Source: Chloroflexia bacterium (GTDB lineage Bacteria > Chloroflexota > Chloroflexia > Thermomicrobiales > CFX8). From it: DNA of 38,342 bases. The translations under genes were made by a program, and so were the position numbers. Shown here one piece after another: positions 11,666 to 15,838 of this stretch. Each line of letters opens with the position of its first letter. Positions within the stretch are counted from its first letter, which is position 1. The stretch lies in NCBI GenBank assembly GCA_030431755.1, contig JAUIIK010000039.1:1-38342 (forward strand), in the 5' to 3' direction. A model generated the notes under the pieces. The model was not told where the DNA came from and ran no database searches. It saw only the letters and a program-made list of their open reading frames with translations.

Positions 11666-12076
11666 GTGACGCTAACCCCCGAACAGAGGTCATTTCTGGA
11701 GGAGCAGCGCTTCACCGTGCTTGCGACCTCCTTCCCGGACGGGCGTATCCAGCAAACAGTGATGTGGTACATGCTGCGCGGCGACACGATCATCATGAAC
11801 ACCGCCGCCGGGCGCGTGAAGGACCGGAATATCCGCGCCAACCCCGCCGTTTCATTGTGTTGGGAAGAGCACTACAAGTTCTTGACGATCAATGGCACGG
11901 TGACCGAACTGATCGACGATCCTGCACAAGCGCTGGAGGACATCTTCAGTTTGGCGCGGCGCTACAACCCCGATGCGTCGGATGACGACATCGATGCGCG
12001 CTTCTCGAACTTCCGACAGGAGGAGCGGGTGACAATCGTCGTCTCGATCGATAGTGTGATCGCCAACGGCTTCTAG
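11666..12076 (+). CDS. PPOX-class F420/FMN-binding protein
   Basis: A 136-residue split-beta-barrel protein of the pyridoxamine 5'-phosphate oxidase-like class, whose small members often use coenzyme F420. The N-terminal pattern (FLEEQRFTVLATSFPDG, then MWYMLRGDTIIMNT, then GRVKDRNIRANP) is that of the F420-dependent PPOX group. It starts at GTG 11666. A second F420-type enzyme follows 54 bases after its stop, and the F420 biosynthesis gene cofE comes next, which strengthens F420 over FMN as the cofactor. Substrate unknown; relatives reduce or bind various heterocyclic compounds. Confidence 0.85.
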   Translation: MTLTPEQRSFLEEQRFTVLATSFPDGRIQQTVMWYMLRGDTIIMNTAAGRVKDRNIRANPAVSLCWEEHYKFLTINGTVTELIDDPAQALEDIFSLARRYNPDASDDDIDARFSNFRQEERVTIVVSIDSVIANGF

Positions 12077-12130
12077 CATCAAGAGCTAGAGACAAACGAT
12101 ACAACCGCCAACGACAGGAAAGGACTCCCT

Positions 12131-13114
12131 ATGGTTGTCATGGGTTACGCGGCGATGATGGAGCAGTTTTCACCGACCGTGCTGCTCGACTACTGCGAAC
12201 GCGCCGAGAAGGTCGGATTTCCGACGGTCATGGCGTCGGACCACTTCCACCCCTGGGTGCCCGAGCAGGGCGAGAGCGGCTTCAGTTACGCCTTCATGGC
12301 GGCGCTTGGTGAACGCACCGAGCAGCGCTTCGGCCCCGGCGTGGTCTGCCCGAGCTTCCGCTATCATCCGGCCATCGTCGCCCACATGGCGGCGACGCTT
12401 GAGGCGATGTACCCGGGCCGCACCTACCTGGGCATCGGCGCTGGCGAGGCATTGAACGAAGCTATCGTCGGCGGCGAATGGCCGGACGGCGGCCAGCGCT
12501 CCCGGATGATGTTCGAAGCCATCGAGATCATCGAGAAGCTCTTCACCGGCAAGCGCGTCAAGCATGAGGGCCGCTACTTCAAGATGGAGTACGCCCGGCT
12601 CTACACGATTCCGGACGAGCCGCCGCCCATCTACGTCGCCACCGCCGGCCCGCTCAACGCCCTCCGCACCGGCCGCCACACTGACGGCATGATCACCGTC
12701 GGCGCGCCTGAAGAGCGCATTGAAGGGCTCTTCAGCCAGTTCGAGAAGGGCGCTGAGCGCGAGGGCAAGGACGCCTCGAAGATGGCGAAGATCCTCCAGA
12801 TCCACGTCTCATACGCCAAGACAGAGGAAGAGGCGACCGAGAACGCGGTCAAGGAATGGCCCAACGGTGGCATGGCCTTCCCGAAGGCCGACATCCGCCA
12901 GCCCGAGGACTTCCAGGCGATGGCCCGGCTCGTCGAGCCCAAGCACTACGCCAACCGCGTCTTCATCTCGAACGACCCGGCGGCGCATCTCGAGCACGTC
13001 AAGCACTGGGCGTCGTTCGGCTTCGATGAGATCTACGTCCACAACGTCGGGCGCAACCAAGAGGAGTTCATCGACGTCTACGGCGAGCATGTCATTCCGC
13101 ACGTCAACGACTAG
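12131..13114 (+). CDS. F420-dependent oxidoreductase, FGD-like (LLM family)
   Basis: A 327-residue TIM-barrel enzyme of the luciferase-like F420 group, strongly resembling F420-dependent glucose-6-phosphate dehydrogenase in its N-terminal half: ASDHFHPW (Asp37, His38, Trp42) and GIGAGEALNE (Glu106) match the residues that hold F420 and catalyse hydride transfer there. In the region where the mycobacterial enzyme has a phosphate-binding Lys (GKGEE as I recall), this protein reads GAPEE, so glucose-6-phosphate may not be the substrate. An Arg in NRVFIS may match the third phosphate contact. ATG 12131 follows GGAAAGGA. It sits between the PPOX-type gene and cofE in what may be an F420 operon. 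Confidence 0.88.
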   Translation: MVVMGYAAMMEQFSPTVLLDYCERAEKVGFPTVMASDHFHPWVPEQGESGFSYAFMAALGERTEQRFGPGVVCPSFRYHPAIVAHMAATLEAMYPGRTYLGIGAGEALNEAIVGGEWPDGGQRSRMMFEAIEIIEKLFTGKRVKHEGRYFKMEYARLYTIPDEPPPIYVATAGPLNALRTGRHTDGMITVGAPEERIEGLFSQFEKGAEREGKDASKMAKILQIHVSYAKTEEEATENAVKEWPNGGMAFPKADIRQPEDFQAMARLVEPKHYANRVFISNDPAAHLEHVKHWASFGFDEIYVHNVGRNQEEFIDVYGEHVIPHVND

Positions 13115-13136
13115 ATCCACTCATTCGTCGCGCATT

Positions 13137-13169
13137 GCCCGGTAGCGGTCCCATCGGACGCTACCGGGC
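13137..13169. terminator. Hairpin between the FGD-like gene and cofE
   Basis: An 11-bp perfect stem (13137-13147 with 13159-13169) can be extended inward by GTCC/GGAC if one G is bulged. It begins 23 bases after the FGD-like stop and ends 21 bases before ATG of cofE. No U run follows, so it may stabilise the 3' end or attenuate read-through into cofE rather than fully terminate. Confidence 0.55.
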
Positions 13170-13190
13170 ATCACGATATGCGAGGAAAGC

Positions 13191-13949
13191 ATGGCAGTCC
13201 CGGAAATCCAGATCTTCGGTCTCGACGGCATTCCCGAGGTGCGGGAGGGCGATGATCTGATATCGATCATAACGAGCGCGTTGAAAACATCAGAGCTCGA
13301 CCTGCGCGACGAAGATGTGCTCGTCATCACCCAGAAGATCGTGTCGAAGGCCGAGGGGCGACTCGTCGACCTCGCAACTATCGAACCGTCGGCGATCGCC
13401 CAGACCTTCGCCGATGCCTGGGACAAGGACGCCCGGCAGGTAGAGGTCGTGCTCCGTGAGAGCGCGCGCATCGTCAGAATGGACCGTGGCGTGATGATCA
13501 CCGAGACCCACCATGGGTTCATCTGCGCCAACGCCGGTGTCGATGCCTCGAACGTCCCGGAGACGGGTCAGGTCTGCCTCCTGCCGGTCGACTCCGACGC
13601 CTCGGCCCGCCGCATTCGCGCCGGCCTGCAAGAAGCGCTCGGTGTCGCCCCGGCGATCATCATCTGCGACTCCTTCGGCCGCCCCTGGCGCAGGGGCATC
13701 ACGAACATCGCCATCGGCGTCGCCGGGATGGACCTCTTCGCGGACTATCGCGGCCAGGTCGACTCCGGCGGTCACGAGATGCGCGTTACGATCATGGCCG
13801 TCGCCGACGAGCTAGCATCCGCCGCCGAGCTCGTCCACGGCAAGATCGACGGCCGTCCTGTCGCCGTCATCCGCGGCTACCCGTACACCAAAGGCGACAG
13901 CCGCGCGACCGACATTGTGTTGGAGCGTGAGAAGGACATGTTCCCGTAA
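13191..13949 (+). CDS. cofE: Coenzyme F420-0:L-glutamate ligase
   Basis: CofE adds L-glutamates to F420-0 using GTP, the last stage of coenzyme F420 biosynthesis, in the cytoplasm. The 252-residue length matches stand-alone CofE, not the longer actinobacterial FbiB, which carries a C-terminal nitroreductase-like domain absent here. Family features seen are DVLVITQKIVSKAEGR, GFICANAGVDASN, IICDSFGRPWRRG followed by NIAIGVAGM, and the late YPYTKGDSRATD. ATG 13191 follows GCGAGGAAA. It lies directly after two probable F420-using enzymes. The other biosynthetic genes (cofC, cofD, cofG/H) are not in the window. Confidence 0.95.
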   Translation: MAVPEIQIFGLDGIPEVREGDDLISIITSALKTSELDLRDEDVLVITQKIVSKAEGRLVDLATIEPSAIAQTFADAWDKDARQVEVVLRESARIVRMDRGVMITETHHGFICANAGVDASNVPETGQVCLLPVDSDASARRIRAGLQEALGVAPAIIICDSFGRPWRRGITNIAIGVAGMDLFADYRGQVDSGGHEMRVTIMAVADELASAAELVHGKIDGRPVAVIRGYPYTKGDSRATDIVLEREKDMFP

Positions 13950-14125: not shown

Positions 14126-15838
14126 CTACGGGGTGTAGTTGCCGTCCAGCCACTGTCTGGCAAGCGCGCTGACGGGCTGTCCGTCTTCGTCGACGGAACC
14201 GCCAGAGGCGTCAAGGACCTCGAACCAGTTGCGGTCGTAGCCGGTCGCGCCGTCCGGCAGTGGCTCGTTTTCTTCCTCGGTCTGTAGCACGCCGTCACCG
14301 TCGGTCGCTCGCACGGTAACGCGGCGAATGCCGGGCTCGGTCGCGAGGTAGTCGTAGCGCCAGAGTCGCCAGGTGCGGCTTGACGGCACCTCCGAGAGCT
14401 CCGCCTCGTTCCAGGTCTCGCCGCCATCGGTCGTCACTTCGACCTTCTCAATGCCTCGGTCGCCTGCGAAAGCGACGCCGCCCATCTGGACCGTCTCGCC
14501 CATCTCGGCCTTGTAGCCGCGCCGTGGAATGTCCAGCCGGCTCATTGTTACGACCGTCGCGACATCGCTCCACTGGCGTTCCTGCCAGTAGCCCTGGTAG
14601 TCCTCATCGACGGCCTCGATCTTCGTGATCCACTTCACGTTCTTCATCCCGAAGATATTCGGCACGATCAACCGCAATGGGAAGCCGTGCTTGTCGGTCA
14701 GCGGCTGCCCATCCATGAGGTAGACGAGCATCGTGTCATCCTGCATCGCTTCATCGAGCGGGATTGATTCGGTGTACCCGTCAGCAGCTTCCATCTTGAT
14801 GTCGATGACACCATCCTGAATACCAGCCTCCTCCAGCAAGTCCTTGAGCGGGAAGCCGGTCCAGATCGTGTTCGAGATGTAGGTGCCGCCAACGCGGTTG
14901 GAGATGCACTCGAGCGTCGATGCCATCTCGGTTGTTTCACGCATCATGACATCAGTGAAGCTCAGGGACATTGGATTCTCGACCATGCCGCCGATATCGA
15001 GCGACCAGTCCATCTCCGTGACGGTCGGATCGACGAGGTTCTTGGACACGACGTAGAAGGCGTCATTCGGGGTGATGAACTCCGGCATCCCGGCTGCCTC
15101 GAACGTGCCCTCGCCTGCCGTCGCCCGGAACGCCGCCTCGGTATCCGCGACGGTTCGGAGGCGGTTGGCGTGGGTACCGACATAGCGGGCGGCCCAAAGC
15201 GCCGGGATCGCCAGCGCGCCGAGTCCCGCGTACTTCAGGATCGCGCGACGGCTCTCGTCGGTCGCTGTCTCGGTAGTTGCGCCCGGCCAGGGCACCATCG
15301 CGGCCACCATCGCGCCATAAGCGAGCGCGGTGATGACGAAGTTGATCTGCGTATCCATCGTGCCGAGCGGCGAGTCGAGCGCGAAGAGGCCGATCCCACC
15401 GATAGGCGCGGCAACAAGCGAAAGCGTCAGCCAGGCGACGCCACTCAGGGCCAGACCGCCAAGGATGCGCGCTCTAATCGAAGAGCCAGCGAAGCGCGCG
15501 TAGATGACCGCGCCTACCGCCGCCGCAATGATCTGGCCCACGGTGATGCCGATCAACGCGACCGGTTTCGCGTTCTCCTCAAGACTCTGGATCGAGTCCC
15601 GCACGACCGACAGCGGCAGTTCAGCAGTTGTACGCTCGGCAAGCAGCTGGGCAACAATTGAGCCACCCCAGCTCCGGCCAATCCAGAGCATGAGCCCGCT
15701 CGCGATGAGACCGGCCAACGCCCCGACGATCACCGCGTTCAGCAAGCGCCAGTCACGGGTCTCGACCGGCGCGAGTACCCCCGCGTCGACGTCATCAGGA
15801 TGCTCTGCGCTTGTTAGATCAGTTGGCACGCTTGTCAT
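14126..15838 (-). CDS. Membrane-anchored molybdopterin oxidoreductase (sulfite-oxidase fold)
   Basis: A 570-residue protein with a membrane N-terminus and an extracytoplasmic molybdenum domain. Spans are about 32-54, 93-114, 125-145, 165-183 and 200-217; just before the last is SRRAILK (196-202), a Tat-like twin-arginine motif. From about 245 the sulfite-oxidase-type Moco domain follows, with the Mo-ligand Cys311 in TLECISNRVGG and typical GFPLKDLLEEAG and GFPLRLIVPN segments. The C-terminal third (from about 425) is the Ig-like Mo-co dimerisation domain (VEVTTDGGETWNEAEL). No haem motif is visible. The Moco part suggests a respiratory or detoxifying oxidoreductase; the substrate is not evident. 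Start ATG 15838. Confidence 0.88.
   Translation of the reverse strand: MTSVPTDLTSAEHPDDVDAGVLAPVETRDWRLLNAVIVGALAGLIASGLMLWIGRSWGGSIVAQLLAERTTAELPLSVVRDSIQSLEENAKPVALIGITVGQIIAAAVGAVIYARFAGSSIRARILGGLALSGVAWLTLSLVAAPIGGIGLFALDSPLGTMDTQINFVITALAYGAMVAAMVPWPGATTETATDESRRAILKYAGLGALAIPALWAARYVGTHANRLRTVADTEAAFRATAGEGTFEAAGMPEFITPNDAFYVVSKNLVDPTVTEMDWSLDIGGMVENPMSLSFTDVMMRETTEMASTLECISNRVGGTYISNTIWTGFPLKDLLEEAGIQDGVIDIKMEAADGYTESIPLDEAMQDDTMLVYLMDGQPLTDKHGFPLRLIVPNIFGMKNVKWITKIEAVDEDYQGYWQERQWSDVATVVTMSRLDIPRRGYKAEMGETVQMGGVAFAGDRGIEKVEVTTDGGETWNEAELSEVPSSRTWRLWRYDYLATEPGIRRVTVRATDGDGVLQTEEENEPLPDGATGYDRNWFEVLDASGGSVDEDGQPVSALARQWLDGNYTP

Follow-up and report, generated by a model that had tools for sequence, protein, structure and literature searches.

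The protein encoded at 14126-15838 on the minus strand of the window, the whole 38,342-nucleotide stretch of Chloroflexia DNA that was analysed, is best read as an extracytoplasmic Moco oxidoreductase that sits on a five-span anchor and is assembled by Sec and then by Tat. We put the probability of this reading at about 0.8 and regard it as well supported, not proven. Our study documents the anatomy of the protein, the conservation of its Arg pair, the charge pattern of its family, the Tat and Moco genes of its genome and the free forms of the enzyme. We infer Tat dependence and Moco loading for the window protein itself. Moco enters the folded apoenzyme in the cytoplasm. In the assembly path that we propose, Sec would insert TM1-4 co-translationally with the N-terminus inside, and the chain past TM4 would remain cytoplasmic, where the C-terminal domain could fold and take up Moco. 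The Tat system would then recognise the motif SRRAILK and carry the folded domain across the membrane, leaving TM5 as the final anchor.

Domain layout and membrane topology

The 570-aa ORF starts with ATG, its coordinates include the stop codon, and the plus strand is interrupted by stops in the same register. On the minus strand, it encodes a four-helix membrane module, an internal Tat motif, TM5, a Moco domain and a dimerisation-type domain. Insertion energies were calculated with a Hessa-type script, whose parameters are uncalibrated, and the script found hydrophobic segments at residues 30-52, 94-116, 121-143, 167-189 and 198-220. An AlphaFold2 model built on a 65-sequence alignment (mean pLDDT 88.5, pTM 0.82) has helices at 28-57, 62-73 (short, in a loop), 76-116, 121-146, 160-181 and 193-240. 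We assign TM1 to residues 28-57 (15668-15757), TM2 to residues 94-116 (15491-15559), the membrane portion of the long helix, TM3 to residues 121-146 (15401-15478) and TM4 to residues 160-181 (15296-15361). SRRAILK occupies residues 196-202 (15233-15253), the Arg pair being 197-198, and TM5, the putative Tat-dependent span, covers residues 199-220 (15179-15244). The Moco-binding domain (PF00174, 156.5 bits) spans residues 271-418 (14585-15028) and the Mo-co_dimer domain (PF03404, 30.9 bits) residues 446-520 (14279-14503), both above the Pfam cut-off. Cys311 (14906-14908), the molybdenum ligand by homology, is the sole cysteine of the protein; a Cys is present at this place in 106/106 phylum sequences and in 80/80 named loci, the latter being the best 80 of at least 543 confirmed stretches. 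The first-pass annotation had placed SRRAILK and Cys311 exactly where the translated ORF has them, and the four hydrophobic spans and the fifth that it described were all found by the script. The first four are confident in the AlphaFold2 model; helix 193-240, with block means of ~61-74, is among the least confident parts.

By script and model alike, an even number of spans, four, lies ahead of the twin-Arg motif and one span directly after it. The total is odd, as had been claimed, and no even-numbered topology emerged for the window protein. Among 100 relatives, the script counted four spans in 52, five in 37, six in 5, three in 3 and none in 3. The extra segment is, in our reading, probably a weak one that lies in outer loop 1, where the model has a short helix. 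Just ahead of TM2 sit Pro75 (64/65 in the alignment) and Lys91 (59/65), and residue 91 is Lys in 69 and Arg in 5 of the named loci (best 80 of at least 543).

Across the 65 aligned sequences, Lys and Arg reach 16.7 per 100 residues in the N-tail (in), 6.4 in loop 1 (out), 18.2 in loop 2 (in), 2.7 in loop 3 (out), 17.9 in loop 4 (in) and 7.8 after TM5. This is the N-in/C-out pattern and agrees with the earlier proposal of an N-in start and an outside Moco domain. Loop 2 holds more K/R than loop 3 in 51/65 sequences and does not in 14. The window protein itself has an acidic N-tail (2 K/R vs 7 D/E), 4 K/R in outer loop 1 and 2 in cytoplasmic loop 4 at a similar density, and a clear contrast solely between loop 2 (3 K/R) and loop 3 (none). 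Because this pattern of its own is weak, the outward-facing Moco domain that we infer from loop charges draws mainly on those of the family. The acidic N-tail, the weak charge contrast and the low pLDDT of TM5 would also suit a cytoplasmic enzyme, whose spans are inverted or whose TM5 is not inserted, whose Moco domain stays inside and whose Arg pair is accidental. We judge such an enzyme very improbable in view of the family-wide loop charges, the conservation of the Arg pair and the Tat signals found on the free forms.

Conservation and position of the twin-Arg motif

Within the phylum, 275 of 301 genomes have a match to the window protein (its own genome included), a number of which cover the Moco part alone. 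We examined 106 phylum sequences, a set that includes the window protein itself, L003 of the heme type and L053, L095 and L100, which are split or free forms. An Arg pair and a hydrophobic segment lie ahead of the Moco domain in 105/106, a count that is not blind since the Arg pair was itself the search target. The first pass gave 100/106; the remaining six were inspected by eye, five being positive and one, L106, being truncated at the end of its contig. RRx[FLIVM], a fuller form of the motif, is present in 98/105. In the 65-sequence alignment, whose members were hand-picked from the 106, Arg197 is present in 65/65 and Arg198 in 63/65. The named loci (best 80 of at least 543) have RR in 79/80 and RRx[FLIVM] in 71/80, the sole locus without RR, L174, being just a 263-aa frame. 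Their titles name Chloroflexi, Acidobacteria (Terriglobia, Blastocatellia, Chloracidobacterium), Trueperaceae, Thermaceae, Armatimonadetes, Actinomycetota, Rokuibacteriota and MAGs labelled Deltaproteobacteria or Proteobacteria. The phylum and named sets share contigs and are not independent. In both, homologues retain the Arg pair, and the loss that would have spoken against a Tat motif was not encountered.

The motif is also specific in its position. In 92 sequences (the 105 minus 13 with fewer than four predicted spans or of heme-type, split, free or over-long form), RRx[FLIVM] flanks TM5 in 86, TM1 in 12, TM2 in 0, TM3 in 6 and TM4 in 1. This comparison is a motif control and not a blind test, since the TM5 site was chosen for holding RR. 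A bare RR is less specific, occurring at TM1 in 32/92, at TM3 in 24/92 and at TM4 in 4/92, and such pairs before TM1 and TM3 would suit a rival route in which all five spans are inserted by Sec, the domain is exported unfolded and the RR is just a positive-inside anchor. In many relatives the hydrophobicity of TM5 would suffice for Sec, its insertion energy being positive in only 40/92 on the uncalibrated scale. We nevertheless consider insertion by Sec throughout unlikely, because RRx[FLIVM] is concentrated at TM5 and rare at the equally cytoplasmic flanks of TM1 and TM3, because relatives carry the RR-helix as a free Tat signal at the N-terminus and because Moco goes into a folded cytoplasmic apoenzyme.

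On the same uncalibrated scale, TM5 of the window protein has an energy of +0.18 vs -1.15 for TM1, and TM5 is less favourable than TM1 in 60/92 family members. All six wild-type proteins of Table 4 in Tooke et al. (2017; PMC5449189) have positive values, and the hydrophobicity rule of that paper fits the present group only partly on our scale. Relatives with a Sec-compatible TM5 bear on whether the Sec-to-Tat handover really requires low hydrophobicity. Positive charges past the Tat-dependent span are a further trait of the class described by Tooke et al. (2017). Within 15 residues past TM5, at least one K/R is found in 81/105 sequences and none in 24/105, the window protein having two. In three family members of ~720 aa (L273, L274 and L282), a long Pro/Thr-rich, TPEPTPEP-like stretch separates TM5 from the Moco domain and gives the impression of a stalk under the enzyme.

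Split and free forms

Relatives in which the membrane module is separate or absent offer a natural view of the signal. In the split gene of G073 (L230:1146-2788, G073:C138), a four-span frame of 203 codons and the Moco ORF overlap by ATGA, the TGA stop of the first sharing bases with the ATG start of the second. The Moco ORF begins MRVDRRTLLYRAGL, has an N-terminal RR signal and is preceded by a Shine-Dalgarno-like AAGGAGG; this is one case in one assembly, with a weakly supported position in the tree. L188, from an Armatimonadetes MAG, is without the four-span module and has MTRRQLLRR near its start, a signal judged by eye, and shares 47% identity with the window protein in the Moco region. 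L226, L100 and L095 resemble it, with RR and helix 5 forming what appears by eye to be a plain N-terminal Tat signal. A tree of the Moco domain (187 sequences) groups L188 (local support 0.988) and L226 (0.968) with the five-span proteins. Their placement suggests more than one loss of the four-span module, the Tat signal being what remains ahead of the enzyme. In our view, no other evidence in this study speaks as strongly as the free and split forms for the internal motif being a Tat signal, and they provide ready comparisons for how an internal Tat signal works.

Two further loci are of interest. Upstream of the Moco ORF of L188 lies a small ORF that by eye resembles a DM13-type domain. L269 (G105:C291) has the four-span module, the RR motif and TM5, and no Moco domain was found in it; the ORF that follows looks by eye like moeA.

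Gene context

The window genome has matches to TatC (one), TatA/B/E (two), MoeA_N (three, one partial) and the MoaA C-terminal domain (one). Clustering of the flanking ORFs in the named loci (best 80 of at least 543) revealed no recurrent neighbour, the largest cluster, an ABC-transporter ATPase by eye, covering 8/80. Since no neighbour recurs, we propose no electron partner from context. In the window, the gene is flanked by Ada, likewise on the minus strand, and by an F420 ligase on the opposite strand. Positions 11666-13949 (plus strand) hold three consecutive genes with PNPOx-like, luciferase-like and F420 ligase domains.

Active site and enzyme identity

The first-pass annotation called the catalytic part a sulfite-oxidase-type domain. 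As a statement about fold, this holds: the Pfam assignment agrees with it, and the best PDB match of the AlphaFold2 model is SorA (2blf; E 1.2e-28, TM-score 0.72 by target length). The window protein has the Moco fold, the Cys ligand and the dimerisation-type domain in common with SorA and with animal and plant sulfite oxidases. The SorA-type matches cover the window protein from residue ~250 on only, so that the matched chains are without the membrane anchor.

As a statement about chemistry, the term is doubtful. SorA Arg55, His57 and Tyr236, which we take to be residues of sulfite chemistry and which we marked through the PDB entries of the SorA mutants R55M, H57A and Y236F, correspond to Val264, Lys266 and Trp423 in the window protein (Val264-Ser265-Lys266 at 15041-15049; Trp423 at 14570-14572). 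The replacements are a family trait: in 65 relatives, residue 264 is Val in 59 and Ile in 6, residue 266 is Lys in 56/65 and residue 423 is Trp in 65/65. His384 and Arg389, presumably the pterin-side residues, are invariant in the 65-sequence alignment. In addition, the window protein scored 146.4 bits against the NCBIfam SorA model, missing its cut-off of 600, and also missed the cut-offs of the SoxC and SorT models. Because the three residues are replaced, annotating this group as sulfite oxidase is unsafe, and on its sequence the window protein should be called a Moco oxidoreductase without assigned substrate. A tentative idea, to which we give appreciably less than even odds, is that sulfite oxidation is not its reaction and that it catalyses some other oxo transfer, perhaps as a reductase whose active site is nearer that of MsrP. 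It would exchange electrons with a diffusible outside carrier; such a carrier is proposed because no heme ligands are seen in the membrane part.

Origin of the four-span module

The four-span module matched no Pfam family above noise and had no direct match to DUF6789 (PF20587). A Foldseek search of the PDB with the TM1-5 model gave no match that reached E 0.001, the best having E 0.97, and the VIA comparison of TM1-5 gave a Z of 6.1 at most, which is uninformative for helical bundles. A profile of the module is found in 71/151 genomes (E 0.001) and also matches other membrane proteins, and 4/9 proteins tested pass the Pfam DUF6789 cut-off and are also matched by the module profile; the link to DUF6789 is made by way of such intermediates. 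DUF6789-like small membrane proteins align with the module over its length at a profile-profile probability of 96.8 percent, a value that is partly circular since the DUF6789-like set contains proteins picked by the module profile. DUF6789 members not found by that profile reach 2.2 percent, and the heme type reaches 0.6 percent against the same DUF6789-like proteins. Given the score of the members that were not preselected, we treat a DUF6789-like origin as a lead. The window genome also encodes a 362-codon membrane protein (L270, G000:C60:12314-13399) that matches both DUF6789 and the module profile.

Comparison with known systems

Genomes have been searched for the dual Sec/Tat layout before (Tooke et al., 2017; PMC5449189). 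Sco3746 of S. coelicolor is a heme-Moco protein whose five spans were mapped in that work, and reporter fusions to its spans require the twin Arg and Tat for export; homologues are reported from actinobacteria, firmicutes, chloroflexi and euryarchaeota, and conserved His in TMDs 2, 3 and 4 are predicted to hold two hemes (PMC5449189). The earlier annotation saw in the window protein the arrangement of Rieske proteins transferred to a molybdoenzyme. The Sec-then-Tat interpretation stands, in view of the retained RR, the charges and the free forms; its novelty does not, since Tooke et al. (2017; PMC5449189) already demonstrated the idea with Sco3746. The insertion principle is known, and the window protein mainly widens it.

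Sco3746 resembles the window protein in its five spans, its twin Arg right before TM5, its C-terminal Moco domain and the N-in start with that domain outside, which the family loop charges predict for the window protein; it differs in its conserved span His, of which the window protein has none. Sco3746 itself was compared by description, and the sequence comparison used 15 Sco3746-like proteins of the window's phylum. H39, H112 and H126 are present in 15/15 of these heme-type proteins, one of which, L003 (P0002; G000:C110), comes from the window genome and has the three span His and the Arg pair common to all. Both classes coexist in this genome, which has three PF00174 proteins: the window protein, L003 and L002, the last being 37% identical to the window protein and without span His by the script. 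PF03404 at 1e-5 matched neither L003 nor L002 and does not separate the classes.

The five-span layout with RR before TM5, which Sco3746 has too, and the presence of a Sco3746-like protein in the same genome could be taken to mean that the window protein is another Sco3746, with two b hemes in its spans that relay electrons. We find this hardly credible. The only His of the window protein are at 13, 223 and 384, none in a span, and no TM1-5 column in 65 relatives has His as the commonest residue in half or more of them. A profile of TM1-4 scores 0.5 percent probability against the heme-type profile, which is no match, and the match of the whole N-terminal part (29 percent) is confined to the RR-TM5 stretch. 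The heme-protein reading was rejected for want of span His and of a profile match. One or two His fall within a predicted span in 23/100 relatives, L003 among them; since no TM1-5 column is mainly His, we read the group as heme-free as a whole, which does not extend to each member. For a heme-free group, only Tooke et al. (2017) appeared relevant by title and start of abstract in the open-licence part of PMC, and we claim no absence from the literature at large.

Slightly short of even odds, in our estimate, is the broader proposal that these proteins form a second class of dual Sec/Tat molybdoenzymes that arose independently, a Tat span and Moco domain of the same kind having been joined to an unrelated, DUF6789-like four-span module, with no heme and an active site altered from that of sulfite oxidase, widespread in Chloroflexota and in MAGs labelled Acidobacteria, Trueperaceae/Thermaceae, Armatimonadetes, Rokuibacteriota and Actinomycetota. 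The four-span module, which has a conserved outer loop (Pro75, Lys91), may do more than anchor the enzyme and bind quinone or a partner. The last span, which depends on Tat in this reading, seems to be a module of its own that was joined to two four-span anchors without detectable relation.

Two other systems are instructive. MsrP, like the window protein, has a Moco domain and lacks the Arg that SorA has at position 55, with Phe in its stead; it has an N-terminal RR signal, and a membrane protein is encoded adjacent to it. This partner, MsrQ, binds heme b (Tooke et al., 2017; PMC5449189). MsrP and MsrQ (E. coli YedY/YedZ) are two separate proteins, unlike the window protein, which also differs from MsrP in its further C-terminal domain and scores 73.1 bits against the MsrP model, whose cut-off is 207. 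Actinobacterial Rieske proteins carry an iron-sulfur cofactor. In the Rieske protein Sco2149, the early spans are inserted by Sec and the last by Tat (Tooke et al., 2017; PMC5449189), as we propose for the window protein, the difference being that Sco2149 has three spans and it is the third that depends on Tat.
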